In this document: piece by piece, positions 2,793 through 30,875 of the stretch
Layout: every line of letters begins with the position of its first letter
Numbering within the stretch: position 1 is the first letter of the stretch
Assembly (NCBI GenBank): GCA_022563885.1
Contig: JADFMM010000028.1
Location: forward strand, 1-34,918
Direction of reading: 5' to 3'
Length of the DNA stretch: 34,918 nucleotides
Origin: Planctomycetota bacterium
Lineage (GTDB): Bacteria; Planctomycetota; Phycisphaerae; Sedimentisphaerales; Anaerobacaceae
The notes under the pieces: model-generated
What the model saw: only the letters and a program-made list of their open reading frames with translations
What the model was told of the DNA's origin: nothing
Database searches by the model: none
Translations under genes and position numbers: made by a program

Positions 2793-2918
2793 GCCTTTTT
2801 TGAATATCGAACACCGAGCACCGATTAACGAATGTCGAAGGAACTGCAGGCCCAATCAAACCGTTCTTGATTTTCCTTCAAAGATCATTATTCGTTAATC
2901 GAAATTCGATATTCCTAG
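2793..2918 (+). repeat. Palindromic interspersed repeat, copy 2
   Basis: This 126 bp element begins GCCTTTTTTGAATATCGAAC and ends ATTCGATATTCCTAG. Its arms (CACCGATTAACGAATG left, CATTATTCGTTAATCG right) are imperfect inverted repeats. It is in direct orientation to copy 3, which starts at its last bases, and inverted to copy 1. Confidence 0.92.
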
Positions 2919-3043
2919 CCTTTTTTGAATATCGAACACCGAACACCGATTAACGAATGTCGAAGGAACTGCAGGCCCAATCAAACCGTTCTTCATTTTC
3001 CTTCGTAATTCATTATTCGTTAATCGAAATTCGATATTCCTAG
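2918..3043 (+). repeat. Palindromic interspersed repeat, copy 3 (tandem with copy 2)
   Basis: This copy is nearly identical to copy 2 over its whole length, with a few substitutions mainly in the central loop (for example CTTCATTTTC for CTTGATTTTC). The two abut head to tail, sharing the CTAGCC junction, as expected from tandem duplication or insertion into the CTAG end. Confidence 0.92.
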
Positions 3044-18701: not shown

Positions 18702-19163
18702 TTAGTAGGTCGTCACTCCTGGCCCCAGAGTAAACTCGTGCGACTTGACGTCGTAGACGAAGGTACCTCGCGACAGGGACTGGATCCACAGGTGGAACCC
18801 CTCTGCCCGCAGCGCCGAATCGAACTTGTCTCCGACACGGATCTTGGCCCCGCCATAGTTGAGCAGCGCGTCACGGAGATCTTCGCCGAGCTCAAAAACC
18901 TGCTCATCCGTATGTCCCAGCTGCCGCAGGATGACGATCACATCATCCACGGTCAGCCGGATGGCGCTGGTATTGCTCACGGGATGCACGGAGACGGCCA
19001 GGTCTGCACTCCGCGCCGGTTTCGGGGTACGCCATCTCCCGCCACACCCCAAAAGATTTAACAAGAGGAGTGCCAGGACGAGTGTGACCAGACACTTTAT
19101 GGCGTCAGAACGGATTCTCTTTGTTATCAATGGGTATCTCACCGCGGGCGTCCTCAAGATCAA
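18702..19163 (-). CDS. Small lipoprotein coupled to the secretin gene
   Basis: The 153-residue protein has a basic n-region, a hydrophobic core (LVTLVLALLLLNLLGC) and a lipobox LLGC with the acylated Cys at about 40. The mature part (113 residues) begins with a Pro/Arg-rich spacer and continues with LTVDDVIVILRQLG, VFELGEDLRDALLNYGGAKIRVG and a short beta end (FVYDVKSHEFTLGPG). I recognise no family. The TTG start overlaps the secretin stop (TTGA), which indicates translational coupling and a shared function. By analogy with pilotin lipoproteins that guide secretins to the outer membrane, a pilotin-like or assembly role is possible. This is inference from position and lipobox only. Confidence 0.7.
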   Translation of the reverse strand: MILRTPAVRYPLITKRIRSDAIKCLVTLVLALLLLNLLGCGGRWRTPKPARSADLAVSVHPVSNTSAIRLTVDDVIVILRQLGHTDEQVFELGEDLRDALLNYGGAKIRVGDKFDSALRAEGFHLWIQSLSRGTFVYDVKSHEFTLGPGVTTY

Positions 19164-22100
19164 TACCGTGACGTAGGACGACGACGTACATTCGGATTGG
19201 CATTGGGCAGTCTGCGCCCTAGGTCCCTATTGAAATCGCTCAGGGGTGCGGCGCCAGCTTGATTCGTCACGCCCTGTCCGCCAAGCCTCAAGGGTGATGG
19301 CGGTGCAGAGGTGAGAGGCGCCGGATTGGCCATGCCGGGCGCCGGCAGTGGACGATAGACGCTTGGGCCCCGTTCCGGGACGATGCGAGCCGTAATGAAT
19401 ATCGCGACTTCCCGCGCGGTGGAGAGCGTATTGTCGTTGTTGAACAGCTTGCCCAGCAAGGGGATGCGACTGAAACCGGGCGTGCGTCTTGCCTGGATCA
19501 CGCGGCGATTCTCCGACAATCCAGCTATAGCGACCGTACCCCCATCGTGCACCGTCACGGTGTTCTGCGCGGTGCGTCGCGTCACCACGGGCAATTCACT
19601 CTCCGGACCCCTCGGAATACTGTCGCTCAACTCCACGGCGATGATCATGGTGATATCGTTGTTGTCGCTGATATAGGGGATGATGTCCAGCTTCGTGCCG
19701 GATTGGATTTCCGCCAACTCCGTCTGTGCAAAGACTTGGTTCCCGGCCTGAGTCGGTGCCGTCAACATGAAATACTCCTCCTTGATGACGTACATCGTCG
19801 CCTGCTCACCATCCTGGGCAAGCACCTGAGGATTGGCTATGATCTGAGCCTGACCGTTTTCTTCCATCAGATTGAGAGTCATGTTCAGGGCGTTGGTAAA
19901 GGTCCCGTCGGGCGAAAAACCGATCTGCGCGCCCCAGGGCCAACTGCCCCGATAACTTGTCGTACCGGCACCCAACGCGAGAGTGGGCACATTGCGGAAC
20001 GCGCCGGCCTGCAGAGTGGGCCAGCCCCACTCGATGCCCAGGTTCAAGAGGTTGCTCTTGTCCATGACCACGATGCGGGCATCCAGCAGCACCTGTCGCG
20101 GCTTGGCATCTATTGTCTTTAGACTCGCCACGATTTGTTTCAGGACGGCGGGCGGGGCCGTAATCACGGCTATGCGGCCATTCAACTCTCCCTTGACAAA
20201 GGGCCGATAGGCGTCGTGCAGGAGACTCACCGCGTTGGAGGCGCTCATGTACTGCAGTTTGACACGCACCACCTCACTCGAATCGATCAGATCCTCCAGC
20301 GCCGTCGAATAGACGGGGGAGATGAGGTAGTAGTGGTCGGTCTTCTTCCAGGTCAGCCCGGTCCCGGCCAGCAGAATGTCCAGGGCCAAATCCAGAGGCG
20401 TGTTGACGAAATCGCCCGAAACACTCGGCGGAATCACGGTGGCACCGATAATAATGGGAATCTCAGTTTGAATAGAAAAATCCTGTAGAACGACTGCCAG
20501 GTCCTCGGCGGTCGCTGTGTATGTCACGACAGGCCCCAGTGAGGAACTCACAGGACTCCTGGGTCCGCCCAGATCCGGTGGCGTTGAACTGTCTGTGAAC
20601 GACGGCCGACGCCGAGAGGTAACACGCAGACGCTCTATTTCGGCCAACGCGGCCTCCAATTGAGCACTCATCGCTTCGTCGGCGCCAGTGGTCGCTGCCG
20701 GCGGTGTCCCTGCGTCCGCTCCCACTCTCTCCGTTGGCGGCAGACCCCCAGTCACTAGTCGTGTTGGATCCTCGGGCAGGAAGGGCGCCCGATCAGGGGG
20801 CAGCGGTGGAAACACCGAAGGAGCAGAGACGTCACCCGGTGGGGGCGCAATCGGGCCCGTCTCATCGATGTCCTCGATCACATCGACGTAGACGCTATCC
20901 CCAAACTCAATACCAGCCTTGAGAAATGAAATCGAACCCGACCAACCATAGGGCACTTCGACGGTAAACTTGCCATCAACACCGCTGAGCATGGAGGTGC
21001 CTCCATTGTCGGCGGTCACCATCACCTGCGGCAACGCCTCCCCGTCGGCGTCCAGTAAGATATCGGTAATCTTCATCATCTTGACCTCTCCCTTAAAGTC
21101 GACGGTCAAGTCCCTCTTGAGCCCAAACACTTCTTTTTGCAGCGGCATGAAGGTGTGCCCTGGTTTCGCCACCTGAAGCTTGCCTTTCCAGTTATAGGGC
21201 AGGGAAATGCGGTAGCGTCCCTCCGCGTCGGTCACCGTGTTCTTGGGATCACCCAAGCCCAGCTGGACGTCTACATCGGACATGGGGCCATCCTTACCCG
21301 TCACTCGGCCCGACACGATGAACTCCTTCTCCGACGCCTCATAGTCCTGTTGCAGCTGTGGCGTGCCCACGTCCTCGTAGAAGCGGTAGGGAGGGTCGAA
21401 TTGCAGCCCCTCTTTCTTGGGTGTCACCGTGGCGCCGAAGCCATACTCGACTTCGACCTCATAGTCTCCGGCCGCGTCGCTTCGGACCGTGGCGGGGAAG
21501 CCCTCCAGCAACACGTCCCGTTGCCTTCCGGTATTGCCACGAATGACATACTTCACTTTCTTCGCCTTGAAGACGTCGCTCTTGTGCCGGGTCAGACGGT
21601 TGAACGCCACCCCGGGCGGGTCGAACTCATATCCCTCCTTTGCCAGCATCATGGTGCCCGAGTACAAATAGCGGACCTCGCAGGTGTATCTCCCGCGGCT
21701 ATCGGTGTACACCGGCTGACCGTGTCGGTCCAGCATCCCGGTCAGTTCGACCCCCTCGATACCGGCGACCGTACCGGTGAGCTTAATGAATATCTCTTGG
21801 GCAACAAATGAAGGTATCGTCTTGTCCGACTTGATCTTTGTTAGGGAAAACTTGGGAGGTGTGAAGCGATAGCCCTCCAGATGGGGCGTGAGCTCGATGT
21901 TTTGCCCATGGTTGACCTGGGCGGCGAAGTCCCCTCCAGGCCCCGAGAGGACAGCCCCTCGGAGCCCCCTGATTTCAACACCCCCGATGCCGACGTTTCC
22001 CGTCACACTGTACTGAATCTGGGAGGCGTAGAAGTCTTGTCCCAGTTGGGGCGAGACCACCTGATCGTGGCGGATACTGGGCGGACTAAACTCATAGCCC

Positions 22101-22810
22101 TCCATCAGCGGCGTGACCGTCGCCGACCACTCATGGTCTACCTTGAACCGGTAGCGACCGCTGGGATCTGTCTTGACGGGACCGGCAAAACCGTCAAGAA
22201 CGACGCCCGCGATGGGTGAGCCATTGATGGTGATCGTCCCGGAGACTTCATAGGTACTCTTGGCGGGCCGAAAGGTCTGGCTGGTGTCGGCCCTCACATT
22301 TTCGTAGGACTTGTCGGGCGGCGTAAACTCATACCCCTCCTTCTGCGGGGTCACGACACCGGACCAGCCATAGGGCACCGCGACCTTATAGGCCCCGCCG
22401 TTGCCGGGGTAGACGGGTTCGGGAAACCCCTGAAGCACGACGCCGTCGATGCCAACAGACCCGGAAATCATGAAGGTCTGCAGCTTCGAGACAAAACTCT
22501 CCTCCGAAGGCCCTCTGACGGGTCCAATGCGGCGACTCGAGGGCTGAAAGGTATATCCTACCAGGGTGGGCGTGATCGTGCCGATCCAGCCGTAGTAGAC
22601 GTCAACCGAAAACCAGCCATCCTGATCCGTGACAACGGTCCCTGCGTACTGAGGGAATCCCCTGAGCGTGACACCGGGCTCACCGACAGAGCCTGAGATC
22701 GTATACGTCTTTCTGGTGCCTACCACTGCGTGCGCATCGGTGGCGACCAGCAAGACGCAGCCTATCAGACTACTGCCTGCCAAGAAGGTTCCGATAAGTT
22801 TCCTTATCAT
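19160..22810 (-). CDS. Secretin-type outer membrane channel with eight Ig-like repeats and an STN domain
   Basis: The 1216-residue protein has a signal peptide (1-28, ending ATDAHA). Eight tandem beta-sandwich repeats of 70-80 residues occupy about 36-648 (core YxISGxV-GVxLxGFP...TDxxGxYxVxVxYGWSGTVTPxKEGYxFxPP). A Pro/Thr-rich linker (650-710) and a short coiled coil (AQLEAALAEIERL) follow. Residues about 760-830 are an STN/N0 domain, 845-900 an N1-like domain (ALQ-type SASNAVSLLHDAYRPFV), and 905-1145 the secretin pore. Signatures of the pore are VTRRTAQNTVTVHDGGTVAIAGL and PGFSRIPLLGKLFN. A 70-residue Pro/Arg-rich tail ends the protein. Secretins export pili or proteins. Ordinary ones have only N0-N3 here; a long row of Ig-like repeats in front is unusual. 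AAGGG precedes the ATG by 10 bases. Confidence 0.92.
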   Translation of the reverse strand: MIRKLIGTFLAGSSLIGCVLLVATDAHAVVGTRKTYTISGSVGEPGVTLRGFPQYAGTVVTDQDGWFSVDVYYGWIGTITPTLVGYTFQPSSRRIGPVRGPSEESFVSKLQTFMISGSVGIDGVVLQGFPEPVYPGNGGAYKVAVPYGWSGVVTPQKEGYEFTPPDKSYENVRADTSQTFRPAKSTYEVSGTITINGSPIAGVVLDGFAGPVKTDPSGRYRFKVDHEWSATVTPLMEGYEFSPPSIRHDQVVSPQLGQDFYASQIQYSVTGNVGIGGVEIRGLRGAVLSGPGGDFAAQVNHGQNIELTPHLEGYRFTPPKFSLTKIKSDKTIPSFVAQEIFIKLTGTVAGIEGVELTGMLDRHGQPVYTDSRGRYTCEVRYLYSGTMMLAKEGYEFDPPGVAFNRLTRHKSDVFKAKKVKYVIRGNTGRQRDVLLEGFPATVRSDAAGDYEVEVEYGFGATVTPKKEGLQFDPPYRFYEDVGTPQLQQDYEASEKEFIVSGRVTGKDGPMSDVDVQLGLGDPKNTVTDAEGRYRISLPYNWKGKLQVAKPGHTFMPLQKEVFGLKRDLTVDFKGEVKMMKITDILLDADGEALPQVMVTADNGGTSMLSGVDGKFTVEVPYGWSGSISFLKAGIEFGDSVYVDVIEDIDETGPIAPPPGDVSAPSVFPPLPPDRAPFLPEDPTRLVTGGLPPTERVGADAGTPPAATTGADEAMSAQLEAALAEIERLRVTSRRRPSFTDSSTPPDLGGPRSPVSSSLGPVVTYTATAEDLAVVLQDFSIQTEIPIIIGATVIPPSVSGDFVNTPLDLALDILLAGTGLTWKKTDHYYLISPVYSTALEDLIDSSEVVRVKLQYMSASNAVSLLHDAYRPFVKGELNGRIAVITAPPAVLKQIVASLKTIDAKPRQVLLDARIVVMDKSNLLNLGIEWGWPTLQAGAFRNVPTLALGAGTTSYRGSWPWGAQIGFSPDGTFTNALNMTLNLMEENGQAQIIANPQVLAQDGEQATMYVIKEEYFMLTAPTQAGNQVFAQTELAEIQSGTKLDIIPYISDNNDITMIIAVELSDSIPRGPESELPVVTRRTAQNTVTVHDGGTVAIAGLSENRRVIQARRTPGFSRIPLLGKLFNNDNTLSTAREVAIFITARIVPERGPSVYRPLPAPGMANPAPLTSAPPSPLRLGGQGVTNQAGAAPLSDFNRDLGRRLPNANPNVRRRPTSRY
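20867..22705 (-). repeat. Eight tandem Ig-like repeat units inside the secretin gene
   Basis: At the protein level the units start near residues 36, 112, 187, 267, 342, 420, 497 and 578. Each carries a variant of ISG-GVxLxGF, TDxxGxY and EGYxFxPP. Units 1-6 are most alike; units 7 and 8 are divergent (GHTFMPL, AGIEFGD). The DNA copies have drifted enough that no long identical stretches are visible, so the array is old. Confidence 0.85.
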
Positions 22811-22968
22811 GATTCAACGTCCCTTTCTATCACCGGTAGAGGGCACTCCACCGCCACATCCTCTCATTTCGTATCGGCAAAGCCTTTGCGCACGTTAACA
22901 AAATAAACATACCAGTATATTATCTATCCCCTGGAACCCTCTCTCTGGATGCCAACTCGAAACTTCCA

Positions 22969-24777
22969 TTATCGCTGGGGAAACAGAACGGCGCGCTCGA
23001 CGCCATCCTGCCTAATAAAGATCTCGATGGTCTTTGTCTGCACGACAGGCACCGCATTGGCACCCAAGATGAATGACGCTTCCACGCGGTAGGTACCCGG
23101 AATTCTCCTGGAAAAGTCCAGCTCGCGACTAAAAACTCGTCTTTCAAAGGGGAGCATGATCGCATCGCCCTGTTGGCCGTTCTGGAGCCGGTCGTAAGAC
23201 ACCTGCTCACCGGCACCGGCGCCTCCGTCGAGCAGATACAGAGCCACCATACAGGTGGGCTCGATATGGATGAGGCTTTGATTCTCAAAGGTCGCCACCA
23301 CATCAAACTTGGAGTCACCCGTGGCCTCAATCTTCAATCCTCTCTTTGCTACATTGGCGGTCGCCTGTACGGTCTTGTCCTTGACGCAGACATGGGCATT
23401 GATGACTCCGGCCAGTGAGTCATCGCCATAAAAACCAACCAATCTGAGGTTGGCATAGTACGCACCCGGATCGTAACCCCATTGAGGCAGCCTCCGCCTG
23501 TCCGGCATTCTCAGGAAAAGCCGCAGATTGCGTTTGGAGAACGCTCTCACTACCAATTCCGACGGCTTGATACTGAGCCATTCGGCGCAGGACAAGTCAT
23601 CAAGCTTTTCGCCAGTGCCCAAGGCCTTGTTGGCCAGGGCCTCGGGAACGAGAGCGTAGGACTTGATCGTCACCGGCTCATCGGCATTGTTGAATACGGT
23701 CACGACCGCCGATGCCGCCCGCCCAGGCGCTATCTCCATCTCGACCTGAGGAGGCTCCAGCCGAATGGCCGCCTCCCTGCGTGCCAGACCGCCACTGCCC
23801 CCTGGTCCCACATAGTTCACGACCCGACTGATCGATCTAGACAGCCTGCCATCCACATAAAGGGAGGCCTTGATCCGATAGGTCCCCGTCGGCAGGTTCT
23901 TGTAAATGTCCTCAGCCAATTTCAGACGGGAACCCGGTATGATACCCACAGTATCGAAGACAATATTCTTCTTCACCAGCCGCGTCTTGTCGTCTTTCAG
24001 TAGCTGGATCAACTGGGCCACCCCTACGATCTGGCCATAAGTGCCGCCCGTGTTTTTGACCCCCACTGTGACAAGAGTCGTTTCCGGCGCCGTTCCGTTC
24101 GCGGGAACATATTCCAGCCCTGCATCCACCAAACTGATTCGTTTGGGAAGGGCTCCGCCTGCGATCGTGATCAGAACGGGTACGATAAATTCGTAGCGCA
24201 CCACCACACCCGTTTGATCGGGGCGTGCCTCCAGACTGGCCACAATGGCTGCCGTATAAAACCCCCGCACAGCCGCCGGCACCGTGATGTTAACCGGGAT
24301 GAGGTTCCTGTCCATTATTGGAACCTCGACCAGTCCATTATTGGGTAGATCCGCCAGTCGAATCCAATCTCTACAGGACCTGTGTTCCCCGAGATCGATC
24401 ACCTGAGCTGCATCCAAGGGGTCGTTGGGATCTATGGCGTTCCAGGTACCGGATTCCGTCTGCAGCAATTCGACGACGGAGACCCTGACATATTTCGTCT
24501 CATCCCGGCCCATGTTTTGCAGAACAATCTCGGTCCTAATCCGCTCCCGGGGCACCGCCGAAATCTCGTAGACCATCGGCTGGACCATGAACTGCGCGTG
24601 GATGGACTGCGTGAACAACAACCCGACCAAGACGGCCCCCAGGGCCGACTCCATTGCTTTACTTCCACACCCACGCCGAGCACTCTTCTCGGACCCATTG
24701 GGTTCTGGGTGTGTTGACACCTTGGCTCCATAGGGCCATCCCATCGACACACCATTCCGGTCGTGTTCAGAATTCAC
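22969..24777 (-). CDS. Exported protein of two tandem chaperone-like Ig-fold modules
   Basis: The 602-residue protein starts at GTG with AGGAG 6 bases ahead (stop of the spacer at 24778). A long 41-residue basic n-region precedes a signal sequence (ALGAVLVGLLFTQSIHA). Two homologous modules follow, about 64-325 and 335-592. Each opens with a beta-sandwich (MVQPMVYEISAVPRERIRTE or LEPPQVEMEIAPG), has a Cys-Trp motif (SCRDWI at 134, SCAEWL at 396) and a turn GFYTAA or GAYYAN. The first then has VVRYEFIVPVLITI, VGVKNTGGTYG and GIIPGSRLKL, resembling the second domain of PapD-like chaperones or DUF916/DUF3324 cell-surface proteins. I cannot choose between these. It is the first gene of the unit with the secretin. 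A single-module paralogue is at 29991. Confidence 0.75.
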   Translation of the reverse strand: MNSEHDRNGVSMGWPYGAKVSTHPEPNGSEKSARRGCGSKAMESALGAVLVGLLFTQSIHAQFMVQPMVYEISAVPRERIRTEIVLQNMGRDETKYVRVSVVELLQTESGTWNAIDPNDPLDAAQVIDLGEHRSCRDWIRLADLPNNGLVEVPIMDRNLIPVNITVPAAVRGFYTAAIVASLEARPDQTGVVVRYEFIVPVLITIAGGALPKRISLVDAGLEYVPANGTAPETTLVTVGVKNTGGTYGQIVGVAQLIQLLKDDKTRLVKKNIVFDTVGIIPGSRLKLAEDIYKNLPTGTYRIKASLYVDGRLSRSISRVVNYVGPGGSGGLARREAAIRLEPPQVEMEIAPGRAASAVVTVFNNADEPVTIKSYALVPEALANKALGTGEKLDDLSCAEWLSIKPSELVVRAFSKRNLRLFLRMPDRRRLPQWGYDPGAYYANLRLVGFYGDDSLAGVINAHVCVKDKTVQATANVAKRGLKIEATGDSKFDVVATFENQSLIHIEPTCMVALYLLDGGAGAGEQVSYDRLQNGQQGDAIMLPFERRVFSRELDFSRRIPGTYRVEASFILGANAVPVVQTKTIEIFIRQDGVERAVLFPQR

Positions 24778-25013
24778 AGCTCTCTCCTAAAGCCAAACGG
24801 ACCAAGCATTTAAAAGACTAGGAAGAGACCAGAGACCTTCTCTGCACACTACCCCATCCTAATCAACGGTTACTGTTTCATTTTCGGCAAATTACCATCC
24901 GTACTTGCCAACAAAACCCGCCCTTTAAGCTTGTAGCCGTTTCACTTCCCCTCAAGTAATATACCACCCCATAATGATAAGACGAAAGACTATCTTGTAG
25001 TAAACGTTTCTTT

Positions 25014-25043
25014 ATTATACCCATACTACTATATATAAGTCAA
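25014..25043 (-). promoter_or_regulatory. Promoter of the chaperone-like/secretin/lipoprotein unit
   Basis: On the minus strand TTGACT (25043-25038) is followed after 18 bases by a perfect TATAAT (25019-25014) within an AT-rich stretch. Transcription would start near 25008, giving a leader of about 230 bases before the GTG at 24777. Within that leader GGTGGTATATT (24968-24958) repeats an 11-mer found at 27050-27040 in front of the neighbouring unit. Confidence 0.75.
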
Positions 25044-25069
25044 CCAACTTTTCTAATTTATTGGAATAC

Positions 25070-25327
25070 TTAAACATGCATGTCGATCACACGCACCTCG
25101 GCAATCCTCATCCCGGGATAAGGACTGAACTGGCCCGTAGCGACCTCTTCCCCCCGCACACAGATCTTGGCGACATTGAGGCCTTGCTCAACGATGGTGT
25201 CCCCTCCCAGCACCGAGACGTCGCTTTGGGACCGATCCCTGCCCGACTTGCCGCTTCCCTCAACCACACCCACGGCAGAGACAAACGCCATCGCCCCAGA
25301 ATGGGCGTGCACGCCGAACTCCTTCGA
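25070..25327 (-). pseudogene. Eroded paralogue of the small secreted protein at 25472
   Basis: The C-terminal half of a second member of the same family is still readable: SGAMAFVSAVGVVEGSGKSG, then KICVRGEEVATGQF and MRIAEVRVIDMHV before TAA. The neighbour has QICVKGEKVNIAKL and VVVAEVTIQVV at the same distance from its end. The N-terminal half and signal peptide are missing; a terminator hairpin occupies that place. It therefore has no start of its own and is probably the relic of a tandem duplication. Confidence 0.6.
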
Positions 25328-25349
25328 CCCCAGACCTCCAGAACCCGAG

Positions 25350-25392
25350 GAAAAAAGAAAAAAGGAGGAATGGGTCATTTGACCCATCCTCC
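25350..25392 (-). terminator. Rho-independent terminator of the small secreted protein unit
   Basis: On the minus strand GGAGGATGGGTCA pairs with TGACCCATTCCTCC (one bulged base, tiny loop) and is followed by TTTTTTCTTTTTT. The stem is GC-rich and the T-run immediate, so termination should be efficient. It ends transcription 80 bases after the stop codon at 25472. Confidence 0.88.
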
Positions 25393-25471
25393 CCATCTCA
25401 ATCACATATTCATTCTGAATTCGCGACCGAACAATCTCAGTTGAACTCGTGCTTAACGTCAGGCAATAAAT

Positions 25472-25969
25472 CTATGGGCTGCCCTGAGGAACCACCTGGA
25501 TGGTCACCTCGGCAACCACAACGTCACTATCGCCACCCTGCAGCTTGGCGATATTAACCTTCTCACCTTTCACACAGATTTGGAGGCTCGTGTCGCCCAC
25601 ATGAATGTGGGCCGAGCTGCCACCATCCAAGCTAACACTCCAATCACCACCGGACCCGAGGTTTAGCGGGTCTTCCTTGATCGTAGCAGTGAGCGTGGCG
25701 TCAAAGTTACTCTCGACATCAGTCGTGATGCACCCCACATAGGTCTTGTAAGGATCGGAGGCGCTTGTGTCTTGGGTAACCTTGATGCAATCTGTGTCCT
25801 TGATCTGGATGAAGTATCCGACGTCCAGACACACCTCGATAGTGGTCACGGTCACCTTCGCATACCTTGTTGGCCAGTCGTGGACCTTGATATTTGTAAA
25901 AGTGTCACCAGCGATGGCAGGGAGCGCGATCGCCAGCACAGCAATTGCGATTAGACTTTTCTTCAACAT
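25472..25969 (-). CDS. Small exported beta-rich protein, candidate fibre subunit
   Basis: The 165-residue protein has a clear Sec signal (MLKKSLIAIAVLAIALPAIA, cleavage before GD). The mature part of about 145 residues is Thr/Val/Asp-rich and has alternating strand patterns (YAKVTVTTIEVCLDV, DATLTATIKED, DWSVSLDGG, VVVAEVTIQVV). Four cysteines could form two disulfides (EVCLDV, TDCIKV, VGCITT, QICVKG). No enzyme motif is visible. It resembles, in size and composition only, exported fimbrial or coat subunits. AGGA lies 8 bases before the ATG, and a strong terminator follows the stop. A broken paralogue lies just beyond the terminator. Its position next to the chaperone-like and secretin genes suggests it may be their cargo. 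Confidence 0.8.
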   Translation of the reverse strand: MLKKSLIAIAVLAIALPAIAGDTFTNIKVHDWPTRYAKVTVTTIEVCLDVGYFIQIKDTDCIKVTQDTSASDPYKTYVGCITTDVESNFDATLTATIKEDPLNLGSGGDWSVSLDGGSSAHIHVGDTSLQICVKGEKVNIAKLQGGDSDVVVAEVTIQVVPQGSP

Positions 25970-26398
25970 CTTCTTTTCCTTTCTTAACCTACGCCCTGGT
26001 ACTGCCGATATGGCGATACAAGGACCAACCTCAACTTTATCATCCAGACACCGAGTCTGAACAATACTACGTTTTGGGTAATTGAAACCACGTCACCGAT
26101 TTCGTTTCGGGCTTACCCAACCCTCACTCCATCGAAGCCCTCATCCGCAGCCAACGGTCGCAACCCCTTAACCAAAGATCACGTCATCCGCCACTTTTCA
26201 CCTGCAGGGCAGGCTATGGCCCACAGATGTTTCGCAGGCTGCCGCCTGCCCGTTGCCAGTTTTCTCAGCACCACACCTCCTTTCGACCCCTTCCCTTAAA
26301 GGGGATAATCTCAACGAGTAGCAACCATGCCATAAGTCCTGGGTACTAAACAAATTAAGATTACATTGCGATACCGACACCTACGTACAAAGCCAATT
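25970..26398. other. Gene-free stretch between the two small exported proteins
   Basis: No convincing gene is present. Seen here are a short hairpin CCCCTT/AAGGGG (26287-26292 and 26299-26304) and GC-rich inverted pieces around 26205-26255 (CAGGGCAGGC with GCCGCCTGCC). I could not match them to a known riboswitch. No T-run follows, so a terminator is unlikely and the two genes may be co-transcribed. Confidence 0.5.
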
Positions 26399-26866
26399 CT
26401 AAGGAGTCGCCATGACCTGAAATGCCACTACTCCATGGTACCTACCTGCAGGGTAGGTCTGCAGATTTCGCACAGCAAATCCCAAATCGATCGCCACGTG
26501 TACACCGCTGGCGGGCGTCGCCTGCGTCGAAGCGGTCACCGATACCGGCCTCGGACCGACCTGCACACCATTGACCACAACAGACACGTCCTCAGGGCGG
26601 ATGCGGAACCCATTACGATCGACAAAACCTTCGAAGGAGATACCTACCTCATGGGGACAGTTTGCCAGGACGTGAAGATCCAATGTCGTCTCTGATCTAT
26701 ACATTCCTAAGGACCAGGCACTGTCAAGCTTGATGGACCTGGCGTTGACAGAGATGGCAACTGCAGGAGCAGCGCCCCGGAACGACATAGCGAGCGTCGT
26801 CTGCCCGAAACACAGGACCGCCATGAAACCTATTACCAGCACACCATTTGGCACATACCTTCGCAT
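26399..26866 (-). CDS. Exported beta-domain protein, candidate adhesin or fibre subunit
   Basis: About 155 residues. The signal peptide (NGVLVIGFMAVLCFGQTTLA) is followed by a single beta-rich domain: VAISVNARSIKLD, ETTLDLHVLANCPHEVGISFEGF, DVSVVVNGVQVG, GVHVAIDLGFAV and finally YPAGRYHGVVAFQVMA. The closing 'YPAGxYxGxVxFxV' strand is typical of exported fimbrial or coat-type domains, which end in a similar strand; the match is only in pattern. The ATG at 26866 has GAGGG 9 bases ahead; a GTG two codons upstream is the alternative. It is the first gene of the unit that continues with the gene at 25472, driven from an AT-rich promoter at 27040-27068. Confidence 0.75.
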   Translation of the reverse strand: MRRYVPNGVLVIGFMAVLCFGQTTLAMSFRGAAPAVAISVNARSIKLDSAWSLGMYRSETTLDLHVLANCPHEVGISFEGFVDRNGFRIRPEDVSVVVNGVQVGPRPVSVTASTQATPASGVHVAIDLGFAVRNLQTYPAGRYHGVVAFQVMATP

Positions 26867-26872
26867 CAACAC

Positions 26873-27404
26873 GATCCCTCATCCATTTAGGAATAGCTAA
26901 TACTTACCCAAATTCAATTTTCCAAAGAGCGAGCTTCCCTACTAAGCAGTCATCGAATCCTGCCGTGATTCGTTATCCTGCCACACCGGACGACAGACAA
27001 AAGGCTCAAGAGCTATATCTCCATATGGCATTATAATCCAATATACCACCTAACCATCCTAATGTAAACTATATTTGGCCTACTAAACCTATTTTAATTT
27101 CCTAACAACATAATATTCTCAATGTATTATTATCCATAATACCATAACCTTCAATATATATTCTCGTGATAATTTTAATTCATCTCATATCCCCCAAAAA
27201 CCCAGGAATTTCACACAATTGGTGCGTTTTTTTTCCTATCCAGGAGTCGAGTTGGTGAGTCTCCAATGAAATCAAGTTGACGCGGAGCCCATTCCGAGCG
27301 ATTCCCTCAGGAAAAGGCTGTGTGGTGGCAGTAGGGCAGATTGGAGGACAACCGGGAGCCAGGCTCTCGCTGTGATTCAGCAAGACTCCCACAGGGACCA
27401 TCCC
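26873..27404. other. Gene-free region with an AT-rich island
   Basis: From about 27015 to 27190 the sequence is strikingly AT-rich compared with its surroundings (runs such as TTTTAATTT, TCAATATATATTC). It carries the promoter listed at 27040-27068. Nothing protein-like is visible. From 27200 to 27404 base composition returns to normal and no feature is seen before the hairpin element. Confidence 0.6.
27040..27068 (-). promoter_or_regulatory. Promoter of the small exported protein unit
   Basis: On the minus strand TTTACA (27068-27063) is followed after 17 bases by TATATT (27045-27040), preceded by TGG as in an extended -10. The leader to the ATG at 26866 would be about 165 bases. A second TATAAT (27035-27030) lies just downstream. 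GGTGGTATATT is shared with the leader of the secretin unit. Confidence 0.55.
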
Positions 27405-27567
27405 AGGCTCTGTCTGAAAACCCCGTCGTCGGCCCGAGAGCGGGCAGTTTTTTCGGCTGGCAAAGACGGCGAAGCAGGCGATGTTTGTTCTATCGCCGAT
27501 GCACCCGGATGCAGCCAGGCGAAAAAAGGGCCGCTCGAAGCCAGATCGGGATTTCAGACAGGGCCTT
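27405..27567 (+). repeat. 163 bp hairpin element, copy A
   Basis: The ends AGGCTCTGTCTGAAAACCCCG and CGGGATTTCAGACAGGGCCTT are inverted repeats with few mismatches. Further inside, TTTTTTCGGCTGGCA pairs with TGCAGCCAGGCGAAAAAA, so the whole unit can fold into one long hairpin. Copy B at 29897 has the same orientation and the same body (CGGCCCGAGAGCG, GCAAAGACGGCGAAGCAGGC, GGGCCGCTCGAAGCCAGATCG). It lies 46 bases after the ammA stop. Open frames across it are by-products. Confidence 0.85.
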
Positions 27568-27613
27568 GTAGCACTCACGCGGGAAGATCGGCCGGCCGCC
27601 AGGTGTCGTGTTC

Positions 27614-28177
27614 CTAAGCCCCAAATACCTCGGCTTGGAAAGTCAAGAAGGTCGCGTTTTGTCGCCACTGCCCTGATGCCAGGCCAGCCTTCTGAGATAG
27701 CTGCGATAGGGTCTCCTCAAGGGTCCACCCTTGCTCCGGGGCCACTTGGGGCAAGAAGACCGCACGCAGTTTGTCCTTCTGCAAGATGATGCCATCAACG
27801 CCCAAGCGAATATCCCGATAAGAATCCATCTCCTTTGGGACGGTGAGCGCAGATATTTCGATGTGCAGATCCGACAGCTCCACAAGGGACACACGGGCAA
27901 AACGACGATCATTGACCGCCGCATTGACCGCGTTGCTCATCACCGACCGATAGAGGGGTTGGCAGGGCAAGACGTCACCGATGCACCCCCGCAGGCGCGT
28001 GCTGCGCGTCAAGGTCACAAAAGCCGCCCGTTTCGACTGCAGCGCCGATCCAATGGGGATCCCCAGTGTTTGGGCCGCAGGCTCCTCCTGATGGGTCAAG
28101 TAGTACTCAATGGTCCGTCGGGCCAACCCCAATAGGGTAGCCTTGTCTCCGGACGACAGCGATGTGGCGGTCTCCAC
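27614..28177 (-). CDS. amrA: AMMECR1-domain protein (AmmeMemoRadiSam system protein A)
   Basis: The 187-residue protein is cytosolic. It shows the AMMECR1 domain from about residue 10 to 185, with LARRTIEYYL, AAFVTLTRSTRLRGCIGDVLP (the conserved LRGCIG signature, Cys at about 64), YRSVMSNAVNAAVNDRRFARVSLVEL, LHIEISALTVP and GVDGIILQKDKLRAVFLPQVAPEQGWTLEETL. GTG is used as start with AAGGA 7 bases ahead, 4 bases after the MEMO gene stop, so the two are an operon. Such pairs normally occur with a radical SAM protein, which is not in this window. The reaction is not settled; a role in a radical-dependent modification is inferred from the association. Confidence 0.92.
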   Translation of the reverse strand: METATSLSSGDKATLLGLARRTIEYYLTHQEEPAAQTLGIPIGSALQSKRAAFVTLTRSTRLRGCIGDVLPCQPLYRSVMSNAVNAAVNDRRFARVSLVELSDLHIEISALTVPKEMDSYRDIRLGVDGIILQKDKLRAVFLPQVAPEQGWTLEETLSQLSQKAGLASGQWRQNATFLTFQAEVFGA

Positions 28178-28181
28178 TGTT

Positions 28182-29150
28182 TCATCCTTGAGCGGGCGTC
28201 GACCACTGACCTCGTATCTGTGCCGACAGATAACTCACGGAATTCCGATAGTCGCCCATGAGCTGACCTGAGGTCGTATATTCGACAAGGTGGCAGGTAT
28301 GCGTAGGCTCTAGCATAGACAGCAGGATCGCAATCGGCACGCGACCACAAATCGTGGCCCCGGTTTCTTCTTGATAACGCACAAAGGCCGGGGCATCCAG
28401 TGCCTCGATGTGAGCATAGGCGCCCAGATCCAGAGTCCTAAGATTGCTGGCGATGTCGTCCAAAAAAGGTACATACTCAAACCGCGGCCCATAGTGTGTG
28501 AAGTCGGAACTGACCACCATCAACGTATCCTGATCCAACAGTCCCTTCAGAATCGCCGCCACCCGCTGGCTGCTGGCGAGCGAGAGCTGACCTGCCACGA
28601 TCGGGACCAATCGAAAATCGGCAAAGAGATGCTGCAATAGGGGTAGTTCAATTTGGACGCTGTGCTCCCCCCGATGGGCCAGAGGGATGTGCTCAAACCC
28701 TGGTTGTGCCACCAGAGTGTCCACGAAGGTCTGATCCAACGCTATCTCTCCCAAGGGGGTCGCATAATGACTCACATCGGGGAGACTGCAGATTCCAGGC
28801 ATCGACATCCGGTGGCTGGGCCCGATGACAACGATCCTACGGTATTGGCGTCTTGAGCCGGCCAATGCCTTGATGGCCGTAGAACCCGAGTATTCATACC
28901 CGGCGTGGGGCAAGATCACGGCGATGACGTCATTGAGCGGCTCGGAGTCGAGACCTGCAAGGAAACCGTCCAATTGTTCTTTCAGTCGCGCCGCATCGGC
29001 CGGATACCAATGTCCGGCCAGCGTCGATCGAAGCACCGTCTTTCTCGCCCCTGCCGCCGTAGTACGACTCCTTTCCCTGCCACTGATACTAGAAGGCTGG
29101 ATGGTCAAGCCCATGATCGGGCACTGTCCTCTAGACCCAGTGGGAAACAC
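28182..29150 (-). CDS. amrB: MEMO-family protein (AmmeMemoRadiSam system protein B)
   Basis: The 322-residue protein has a basic N-terminal stretch of about 40 residues, then the MEMO fold, which is related to class III non-haem iron extradiol dioxygenases. Conserved pieces are LAGHWYPADAARL, AVILPHAGYEYSGSTA (first His), VVIGPSHRMSM (second His), HRGEHSVQIELPLLQ (EHS/EVQ motif), VVSSDFTHYG and CGRVPIAILLSML. Those His residues are the putative metal ligands. The start may be GTG 29150 (AGGA about 9 bases ahead) or ATG 29114; I give the longer form. It is upstream of and coupled to the AMMECR1 gene. It is divergent from dgkA. Confidence 0.92.
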   Translation of the reverse strand: MFPTGSRGQCPIMGLTIQPSSISGRERSRTTAAGARKTVLRSTLAGHWYPADAARLKEQLDGFLAGLDSEPLNDVIAVILPHAGYEYSGSTAIKALAGSRRQYRRIVVIGPSHRMSMPGICSLPDVSHYATPLGEIALDQTFVDTLVAQPGFEHIPLAHRGEHSVQIELPLLQHLFADFRLVPIVAGQLSLASSQRVAAILKGLLDQDTLMVVSSDFTHYGPRFEYVPFLDDIASNLRTLDLGAYAHIEALDAPAFVRYQEETGATICGRVPIAILLSMLEPTHTCHLVEYTTSGQLMGDYRNSVSYLSAQIRGQWSTPAQG

Positions 29151-29375
29151 AAAGCGTTATCCTATAAGAGCGGCAGTTTACGCACAAGAGTCTTGGCGTG
29201 GCCCATCTTTTGAGGACAGATTCGATTCGAGCACGTACCGAGGTATTTTCAGCCGGACGGTCCACTGGCCGGTCAGCCCGCTCCGCCTCCTCTGAGGGCG
29301 CTATAAAGCCGCTACGCCGATATTCCGATAGAACCCTGACAGAAACAGGGTGTATGCTGTTAAGTATCTGATTCG

Positions 29376-29813
29376 GTGCAACCCAAGATGAAAACTGCCC
29401 GCTTGACTGACCTGGAAACAGTGGATCGCCACCAAAACAGACAGAAAAACTTCTCTCTGAAGGGCCGCCTCCAGAGCTTGCAGTGTGCACTTAGTGGCCT
29501 GAGACTCATGATTCGGTCTCAGCACAATGCCTGGCTGCATGCCTTGGCCTCCGCCACAGTCATTGCCCTGGGCTATCTGCTCCAGATATCGAGAAACGAC
29601 TGGTGCTGGTTGGTCTTGGCGCTGGTCGCAGTATGGACAGCCGAGGCCATGAACACGGCCTTGGAGCTTTTGGCCGATGTGGCCTCACCCGAGTTTCATC
29701 CCCTGGTGGAGAAGGCCAAGGACGTGGCGGCGGGTGCGGTCCTACTCTCCGCAATCGGTTCCGTTGTTATCGGCCTGCTGGTGTTCGGCCCCCATCTTGT
29801 CGACTTGTTGTGA
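29376..29813 (+). CDS. dgkA: Diacylglycerol kinase family protein (DgkA/undecaprenol kinase type)
   Basis: The 145-residue (141 from ATG 29388) membrane protein has a basic cytosolic N-terminus with SLKGRLQSLQCALSGLRLMIRSQHNAWLH. Three membrane helices follow, the central one with the catalytic signature VWTAEAMNTALELLADV, then SPEFHPLVEKAKDVAAGAVLLSAIGSVVIGLLVF. The EAMNTALE and KAKDVAAGAV motifs (Glu and Asp binding Mg-ATP) are intact. These enzymes phosphorylate diacylglycerol or, in many Gram-positive and deep-branching lineages, undecaprenol. Which one applies here cannot be told from sequence. The start could be GTG 29376 or ATG 29388. It is followed 83 bases later by hairpin element copy B. 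Confidence 0.93.
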   Translation: MQPKMKTARLTDLETVDRHQNRQKNFSLKGRLQSLQCALSGLRLMIRSQHNAWLHALASATVIALGYLLQISRNDWCWLVLALVAVWTAEAMNTALELLADVASPEFHPLVEKAKDVAAGAVLLSAIGSVVIGLLVFGPHLVDLL

Positions 29814-29896
29814 AGTCGTGCCCCCATGGCGGAGGTCGCAATGGATGCCCCTAACAGAAGCAGAGGTCGCGGGTCAAGACGATCAGTTGTCGGGGT

Positions 29897-30058
29897 AGGC
29901 TTTGTCGAAAAACTTGCTCGTCGGCCCGAGAGCGAGCAATTTTTTCGCCGGGCAAAGACGGCGAAGCAGGCGATATTGGTTGTATCGTCGATGGAGCGAG
30001 ATGCAGCCAGGCGGAAGAAGGGCCGCTCGAAGCCAGATCGAGTTTTTCGACACAGCCT
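29897..30058 (+). repeat. 162 bp hairpin element, copy B, fused to the front of a gene
   Basis: Same body and orientation as copy A (27405). The ends differ: AGGCTTTGTCGAAAAACTTG and CGAGTTTTTCGACACAGCCT. They are again mutually complementary, so pairing was kept although both ends changed. Its right half contains the likely start codon (29991) and the charged n-region of the signal peptide of the following gene. Confidence 0.88.
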
Positions 30059-30875
30059 CAGTCTACTCCTGTTGCTGTGGATGCTTGATACGTCTCAGGC
30101 AAGTGTTCTGATACGGCCCATGTTGGTCTCATATGAGGCGACGCCCGGCACTGTGTCCCAAATTACAATCCTGCTCGAGAACAGGAGTCCGACGGCAACT
30201 CAACGGGTGGCCATCAGGATCGTAGAACTGCTCCAGAACGAATCAGGTAAGTACTATCCGCAGGACCCCTGTAGCCCGGATCCGAATGTTACAGTCGATC
30301 TAAGTCATCGGGCGACGTGCAGAGAATGGCTCTCGTTTTCAGACCGTCCGGATAGGATCGAGGTCGAAGCCGGCGCCACGGTGACACTATCTCTGTCCAT
30401 CGACACGCCGGCCCAGGCCCAAGGTTTCTACTGTGCAGCCGCCATCATTGCGATCATGCCCAAGACCCAGACCTCGCTGATCACCGCGCGGATTGACTAT
30501 GTGATCCCCATCCTGATCGAAATCAAGGACAGACCGGGACGCCGTCAGATTGACCTGGTGGATGTGGGACTGCGGAGACTTGGGACCGAGTCAGACACTC
30601 GCACCACGGTGCAGATGGTGGTACACAACAACGGACGCACCTACAATCGACTCAAAGCGTCCGCGCGGATAAGACCCTTCTCAGAAGACCACCGTCACAC
30701 CCCTGGAGAGGAGATTGAGATCAAGGAACTTAGCATCATTCCCGGCTCCAGACTCAGGCTGGAAACGAAATTACCCCATCATCTCACCCCCGGCCGCTAC
30801 CTGGTCACCGGCCGTCTTTCTGTCGATGGGGGCCCCGCCTTTACCCTCGAAAAAGAGGTGCGACTGACCGAGTGA
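29991..30875 (+). CDS. Exported single-module chaperone-like protein, paralogue of the 602-residue protein
   Basis: The most likely product is 294 residues from ATG 29991. Its n-region (ERDAARRKKGRSKPDRVFRHS) is encoded by hairpin element copy B, and the hydrophobic core (LSLLLLLWMLDTSQAS) follows directly. The mature part mirrors module 1 of the protein at 22969: VLIRPMLVSYEATPG, TCREWLSFSD (Cys-Trp motif), QGFYCAAAIIAI, ITARIDYVIPILIEI, VHNNGRTYNRLK and SIIPGSRLRLETKLP, with a closing LTPGRYLVTGRLSVDGG. This suggests two Ig-like domains. The frame is open back to 29826, so the true start is uncertain, and no ribosome site is clear. It lies on the opposite strand from its paralogue and is separated from it by the ammB-ammA-dgkA block. 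Confidence 0.78.
   Translation: MERDAARRKKGRSKPDRVFRHSLSLLLLLWMLDTSQASVLIRPMLVSYEATPGTVSQITILLENRSPTATQRVAIRIVELLQNESGKYYPQDPCSPDPNVTVDLSHRATCREWLSFSDRPDRIEVEAGATVTLSLSIDTPAQAQGFYCAAAIIAIMPKTQTSLITARIDYVIPILIEIKDRPGRRQIDLVDVGLRRLGTESDTRTTVQMVVHNNGRTYNRLKASARIRPFSEDHRHTPGEEIEIKELSIIPGSRLRLETKLPHHLTPGRYLVTGRLSVDGGPAFTLEKEVRLTE

Follow-up and report, generated by a model that had tools for sequence, protein, structure and literature searches.

The question raised by this locus is how proteins are exported by a gene cluster in which a secretin is encoded next to a chaperone-like protein and two small exported beta-rich proteins. The cluster lies on a 34,918-nucleotide stretch of a Planctomycetota bacterium (Phycisphaerae, Sedimentisphaerales, Anaerobacaceae; assembly GCA_022563885.1, contig JADFMM010000028.1), the whole of which is called the window here and which, as contig 348, belongs to a genome of 6.5 Mb (G000; 470 contigs, 96% complete). 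The answer favored here, to which about an even chance is given, is that the cluster encodes a chaperone-secretin pathway, in which donor-strand-chaperoned, pilin-like subunits would leave the cell via a dedicated secretin. The cluster suggests an undescribed way of building or exporting bacterial surface proteins. A re-check of open reading frames (ORFs) in the window bore out the positions given in an earlier, sequence-only reading, and places five genes on the minus strand in the order SUB2-SUB1-CHAP-SEC-LIPO:

26399..26872, minus strand: SUB2, a putative exported beta-rich subunit (conserved family; weak profile similarity to SUB1).
25472..25969, minus strand: SUB1, a putative exported pilin-like subunit (AlphaFold model with a predicted local distance difference test score, pLDDT, of 82.4; similar to PapG pilin domain 3me0_B).
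22969..24777, minus strand: CHAP, an exported protein of 602 amino acids with two tandem chaperone-like modules (AlphaFold model, pLDDT 80.6).
23800..24600, minus strand: CHAP module 1, a predicted WxLIP/CsuC-like two-domain unit, residues 60-326 (similar to WxLIP 9i25, CsuC 6fq0 and the EfmWxLIP1 profile).
23023..23787, minus strand: CHAP module 2, a predicted Caf1M/FimC-like two-domain unit, residues 331-585 (similar to Caf1M 3dsn).
19160..22810, minus strand: SEC, a secretin of 1216 amino acids (PF00263, E 1.4e-33; STN, E 1.5e-7).
20864..22705, minus strand: the eight N-terminal CarboxypepD_reg-like repeats of SEC (repeat count; PF13620, E 2.2e-15; CooC_C, E 9.3e-8).
20315..20425, minus strand: the STN or N0-like domain of SEC (PF07660, residues 796-832).
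19379..19867, minus strand: the pore domain of SEC (PF00263, residues 982-1144).
18702..19163, minus strand: LIPO, a small lipoprotein and candidate pilotin (TTGA overlap with SEC; invariant lipobox Cys; no Pfam family).

The module protein has a match in 43 of the 89 genomes, and 18 of the 45 genera, of the window's GTDB family. All 38 long-form loci (as distinct from the short form described below) keep the same gene order and strand, barring missing or cut-off members, and this conservation of layout across genomes rules out chance. Exactly all five genes are present at 18 of the 38 loci and a second SUB1 at three; most of the incomplete loci stop at a contig end, and of those with long flanks three have no recognizable SUB2 (L082, L024, L095) and one has neither subunit (L111). 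The flanking genes are lineage-specific and of housekeeping types (e.g., a ClpB-like chaperone and a DNA ligase, named by eye), the most widespread being found near only 9 of 35 loci; since the flanks vary between lineages, the conserved unit is evidently these five genes. When 84,980 GTDB species genomes were scanned, the secretin alignment being the query (the A5 alignment was dropped as a DNA-scan query because it is too divergent), 35 loci of the same layout were found, all in metagenome-assembled Planctomycetota (Phycisphaerae, Sedimentisphaerales), most of them the family loci again under named records.

CHAP contains two copies of one module, as the sequence-only reading had proposed. 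In an AlphaFold2 model of CHAP built with 28 homologs, the best structural neighbor of module 1 is the WxLIP protein of Enterococcus (9i25, Z 19.1 over 234 residues, spanning both domains), followed by CsuC (6fq0, Z 11.3) and CfaA (Z ~11), while the nearest neighbor of module 2 is Caf1M (3dsn, Z 12.9 over 185 residues), followed by YadV, CupB2 and FimC (~Z 12), among others. Whole modules align with Caf1M, FimC, CsuC and CfaA at Z 11-13, a likeness of fold only. The modules are thus predicted to have the two-domain Ig-like fold of chaperones, as the sequence-only reading anticipated, and comparison of the model with solved structures confirmed it; the nearest solved relative is WxLIP and not PapD, a point absent from that reading. 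Single-sequence searches of CHAP and its single-module paralog against solved structures gave no match, but the CHAP profile matched EfmWxLIP1 in the PDB (E 0.0019), the sole match well below E 0.05. Among 37 CHAP members, none matched the curated Pfam family of PapD-type chaperones and seven matched WxLIP_PGBD (E≤0.01), the CHAP of the window itself being without a match; one short-form relative (L121) scored above the PF06030 (WxLIP_PGBD) cut-off (27.7 versus 27.3).

SUB1 and SUB2, the two small exported beta-rich proteins already noticed upstream, have N-termini that resemble signal peptides by eye. A PapG pilin domain (3me0_B, E 7.8e-5, Z 7.7) is the top match of the AlphaFold2 model of SUB1 (residues 1-26 of which have pLDDT below 50) in both structure-comparison programs, and the further matches are the chaperones Caf1M and PapD. 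These matches are suggestive of a pilin-like fold, but Z values below 8 can reflect a common arrangement, so they are not conclusive. SUB2 is weakly related to SUB1 by profile comparison (E 4e-5, probability 70), and a weak match to PEGA occurs in 2 of 26 SUB2 members. The two kinds of protein are fused in two relatives: a product of 442 amino acids in G000 itself (L030, contig C162, 2638-3966) joins two CHAP modules to a SUB1-like domain (E 3e-16), and a product of 483 amino acids in another genome (L113, G055:C286, 4184-5635) joins one CHAP module to such a domain (E 7e-19). These fusions argue that CHAP and SUB1 bind each other.

How long they would stay bound separates the favored pathway from its nearest alternative. 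In the WxL/WxLIP system, the predicted role of a hairpin strand of WxLIP is to complete the WxL sandwich by insertion, and the two are proposed to form a lasting complex (PMC10599100). By the same token, CHAP might remain strand-complemented with SUB1 and SUB2 as a finished surface complex that the secretin exports or anchors, making the cluster a diderm version of the WxL/WxLIP system. The structural and profile matches to WxLIP, the WxLIP_PGBD domain in some CHAP members and the fusions, which would suit a permanent complex, all favor this alternative, but CHAP has no C-terminal transmembrane helix or hydrophobic segment apparent by eye, no WxL domain was matched in any SUB1 or SUB2 member, and module 2 is closest to chaperones of the Caf1M/FimC type. 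On balance it is considered rather unlikely.

SEC is a secretin by its pore domain, which passes the PF00263 cut-off (116 bits versus 27.5), but it falls below the cut-offs of all NCBIfam secretin models compared (GspD, PilQ, MshL and SctC), scoring 129 bits against the 351 of the GspD equivalog (TIGR02517) and 116 bits against the 284 of PilQ (TIGR02515). Exactly eight N-terminal repeats are present in each of the 31 family secretins whose ORFs hold both parts; the count of eight in the sequence-only reading was correct, but these are beta-sandwiches of the CarboxypepD_reg or transthyretin-like kind and not classical Ig domains. In 14 of 19 members, that of the window included, the repeats also score as CooC_C, the C-terminal domain of CS1-type ushers, which may be a general similarity of fold. 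The start of LIPO overlaps the stop of SEC through TTGA, which bears out the coupling of lipoprotein and secretin noted before, and the lipobox cysteine of LIPO is invariant among 24 relatives. Genome-wide, G000 yields 13 secretin matches and 18 matches to GspE-type ATPases.

A profile search of 392 Planctomycetota genomes, extended beyond the phylum to plasmids only for the short form, located relatives of the module in few, scattered families. The short form consists of a chaperone and a secretin of ~450-580 amino acids without repeats, usually with small exported subunits, and it is found in other families of Planctomycetota, at least five of them, and in genera of the family to which the window belongs. 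The chaperone adjoins the secretin or is a few genes away from it in five families (f21, f98, f83, f29 and f35), and in four (f1, f21, f29 and f35) its neighbors include small exported ORFs that have a conserved C-terminal strand. Chaperones of the two forms are homologous (E 1e-32). For the subunits, profile comparison of SUB1 with those of the short form gave no significant match, that of SUB2 gave a match confined to a 35-column C-terminal stretch, and the short-form subunits had no useful match in Pfam or the PDB. In a maximum-likelihood tree, chaperone-linked secretins of six families are split from nine other testable secretins of G000 (branch support 91/85; 92% of bootstrap trees), with some rows being long and the separating branch below the strongest support class. 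The chaperone-linked secretins form a separate lineage.

No GspE or GspF was found among the ORFs of the window, as the sequence-only reading had noted, or in 84 chaperone-linked stretches searched with the GspE and GspF proteins of G000 (many of these being one locus from two collections, and several being short). At the other secretin loci of G000, by comparison, GspE was found at 5 of 12, GspF at 5 of 12 and either or both at 6 of 12. Homologs of the secretin consistently go with the module gene and not with GspE or GspF; the chaperone-type fold of the modules being predicted as well, neither of the two outcomes that the sequence-only reading named as refuting was observed. The usher families were likewise absent, PF00577 from 38 carrier genomes and TcfC (PF16967) from 35, with positive E. 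coli controls for both. Membership in type II secretion was rejected because of the lack of linked GspE/GspF and the missed TIGR02517 cut-off, and membership in type IV pili because of the missed TIGR02515 cut-off, in line with the earlier remark that the stretch looks like neither system; membership in the classical chaperone-usher pathway was rejected because no usher and no PapD-type Pfam match were found.

A motor could act in trans. In that case genes elsewhere in the genome would supply the motor that drives the secretin, one of the type II secretion or type IV pilus kind, and the cluster would be no more than a substrate-specific module at the outer membrane, together with the cargo and a protein that protects it. 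Each of 24 carrier genomes has 10-24 matches to GspE-type ATPases, and SEC retains an N0-like STN domain, which in GspD is the part that contacts inner-membrane partners. The loci nevertheless lack the nearby GspE or GspF that other secretins of G000 often have, and the chaperone-linked secretins group apart and, in the case of SEC, miss the GspD, PilQ, MshL and SctC cut-offs, so that a motor in trans is judged unlikely. Far less probable is a structural role, in which the secretin forms a ring or crater-like element of the outer membrane that is decorated by CHAP and the small proteins, with no export through it: crateriform outer-membrane structures do exist in Planctomycetota (PMC11131199) and the secretin repeats are unusually long, but the short form keeps subunits and chaperone though it lacks repeats, and the pore domain is intact.

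The chaperone-secretin pathway can be outlined as follows, against the observed background of a conserved cluster, predicted folds, a separate secretin lineage and the lack of linked motors and recognized ushers; strand donation, docking, the route of export, the pilotin role and the source of energy are all parts that we infer. SUB1 and SUB2 would reach the periplasm through Sec, where one or both modules of CHAP may hold one or two subunits by strand donation. CHAP would then pass the subunits to the outer-membrane secretin, serving as exit channel in place of an usher. From the secretin, the eight repeats would extend into the periplasm, where the chaperone-subunit complex may dock on them much as it does on the C-terminal domains of ushers, and LIPO probably aids the targeting or assembly of the secretin. 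The sequence-only reading, which proposed a secretin in the usher's place, its repeats as a possible periplasmic spacer and the lipoprotein as a possible pilotin, is partly supported. Export would be driven by folding or polymerization of the subunits, not by a GspE-type motor, and the product could be a fiber or surface layer. In chaperone-usher systems, the G1 strand of the chaperone completes the pilin, and strand exchange joins the subunits (PMC4654587). Archaic pili can take the energy for secretion from quaternary structure outside the cell (PMC9452303), which implies that a motor is not required in principle. The broader proposal, that motor-free secretion and fiber assembly with a WxLIP/PapD-type chaperone and a secretin for an usher extends through several families, with the channel exchanged between lineages, is plausible but somewhat less probable than not. 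Three points weigh against the pathway: the structural scores of SUB1 are middling; the GspE-type ATPases found in all 24 of the carrier genomes make a motor in trans possible; and module 1 has as its closest relative WxLIP, which is a partner protein resident at the surface and not a chaperone that is released.

Four further features of the window lie between or beside the core genes:

25070..25405, minus strand: a possible relic of a third subunit (C-terminal similarity to SUB1; shuffle test).
25368..25389, minus strand: a terminator-like hairpin after the SUB2-SUB1 unit (a lead only; such sites occur in chance-level numbers).
25014..25043, minus strand: a promoter-like site (11/12) before the CHAP-SEC-LIPO unit (a lead only).
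29826..30875, plus strand: the single-module CHAP paralog, probably outside the core unit, its signal-peptide region split by an insertion (29897-30058).

The eroded third subunit of the sequence-only reading is weakly supported: its C-terminal similarity to SUB1 is equaled by 12 of 1000 shuffles, and that of the copy in a sister genome by 1 of 1000. The nearby paralog, also predicted earlier, has one copy of the module and matches the WxLIP HBD at E 0.01 only. Near its start, 54 codons belong to an inverted-repeat element of 162 bp inserted in frame; sister genome G001 has the site without it. This insertion and 27405-27566 are copies of an element resembling a miniature inverted-repeat transposable element, with inverted termini of 19-23 bp; it has ~50 matches in G000, ~50 in G001 and some two dozen in G002, and a search of other genera showed none. 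The window also carries three copies (1220-1343, 2786-2918 and 2910-3043), not all in the same orientation, of another repeat family, ~120-134 bp long.

Secretins and chaperone-usher pathways are treated as separate: the drive for secretins comes from the inner membrane, through an ATPase or a phage, and that for ushers from subunit folding alone. If the pathway is as proposed, it joins these two worlds, indicates that chaperone-assisted export can change its outer-membrane channel, links the WxL/WxLIP proteins of Gram-positive bacteria to the chaperone-usher pili of Gram-negative bacteria, and is a first candidate for surface assembly in a group of Planctomycetota known here from metagenome-assembled genomes alone. 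A search of openly searchable papers on chaperone-usher systems, secretins and Planctomycetes, which did not extend to preprints or subscription papers, turned up no system of this kind.

Outside the phylum, the short-form chaperone has a distant relative encoded on a Deinococcus plasmid (E 6e-8). Three Deinococcus plasmids (L191, L192, L193) encode a small exported ORF, the CHAP-like protein, an ORF of ~180 amino acids and a protein of 1000-1090 amino acids, which in the one examined of the three has Ig-like and CarboxypepD_reg domains. In genome G232, a locus that lacks a secretin (L172, 5587-11582) has a CHAP-like gene together with four small exported ORFs; its large envelope protein, with Ig and CarboxypepD_reg domains, is broken across two reading frames and shows weak N-terminal similarity to the large Deinococcus protein (E 9e-5). 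These large proteins (1000-1100 amino acids) occupy the slot that corresponds to the secretin. When the Deinococcus protein was examined for a barrel by its amphipathicity, the test did not discriminate. Should the large proteins turn out to be barrels of the usher kind, which is a lead only, the secretin would be a replacement in an older chaperone pathway.

Among known systems, the archaic and alternative chaperone-usher systems (CsuC and CfaA, of Csu and CFA/I pili) share with this cluster the two-domain beta-sandwich fold of the chaperone, small pilin-like subunits and an operon order of subunits, chaperone and outer-membrane channel; unlike them, the cluster has a secretin in the slot of the usher, two modules per chain, an extra lipoprotein and no PapD Pfam match. 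The WxL/WxLIP proteins of Gram-positive bacteria are the closest relatives of the module in both sequence and structure, and completion by strand insertion is predicted there, but the cluster differs in its diderm hosts, its secretin and lipoprotein, a CHAP without a C-terminal membrane helix and subunits without a WxL domain match. GspD, PilQ and MshL have the pore domain and the STN or N0-like domain in common with SEC, which departs from them in scoring below curated cut-offs, belonging to its own lineage, having no linked GspE/GspF and carrying eightfold N-terminal repeats. The Deinococcus and G232 operons, like the cluster described here, set a CHAP-family protein amid small exported ORFs and follow it with a large CarboxypepD_reg envelope protein, but theirs is not a secretin.

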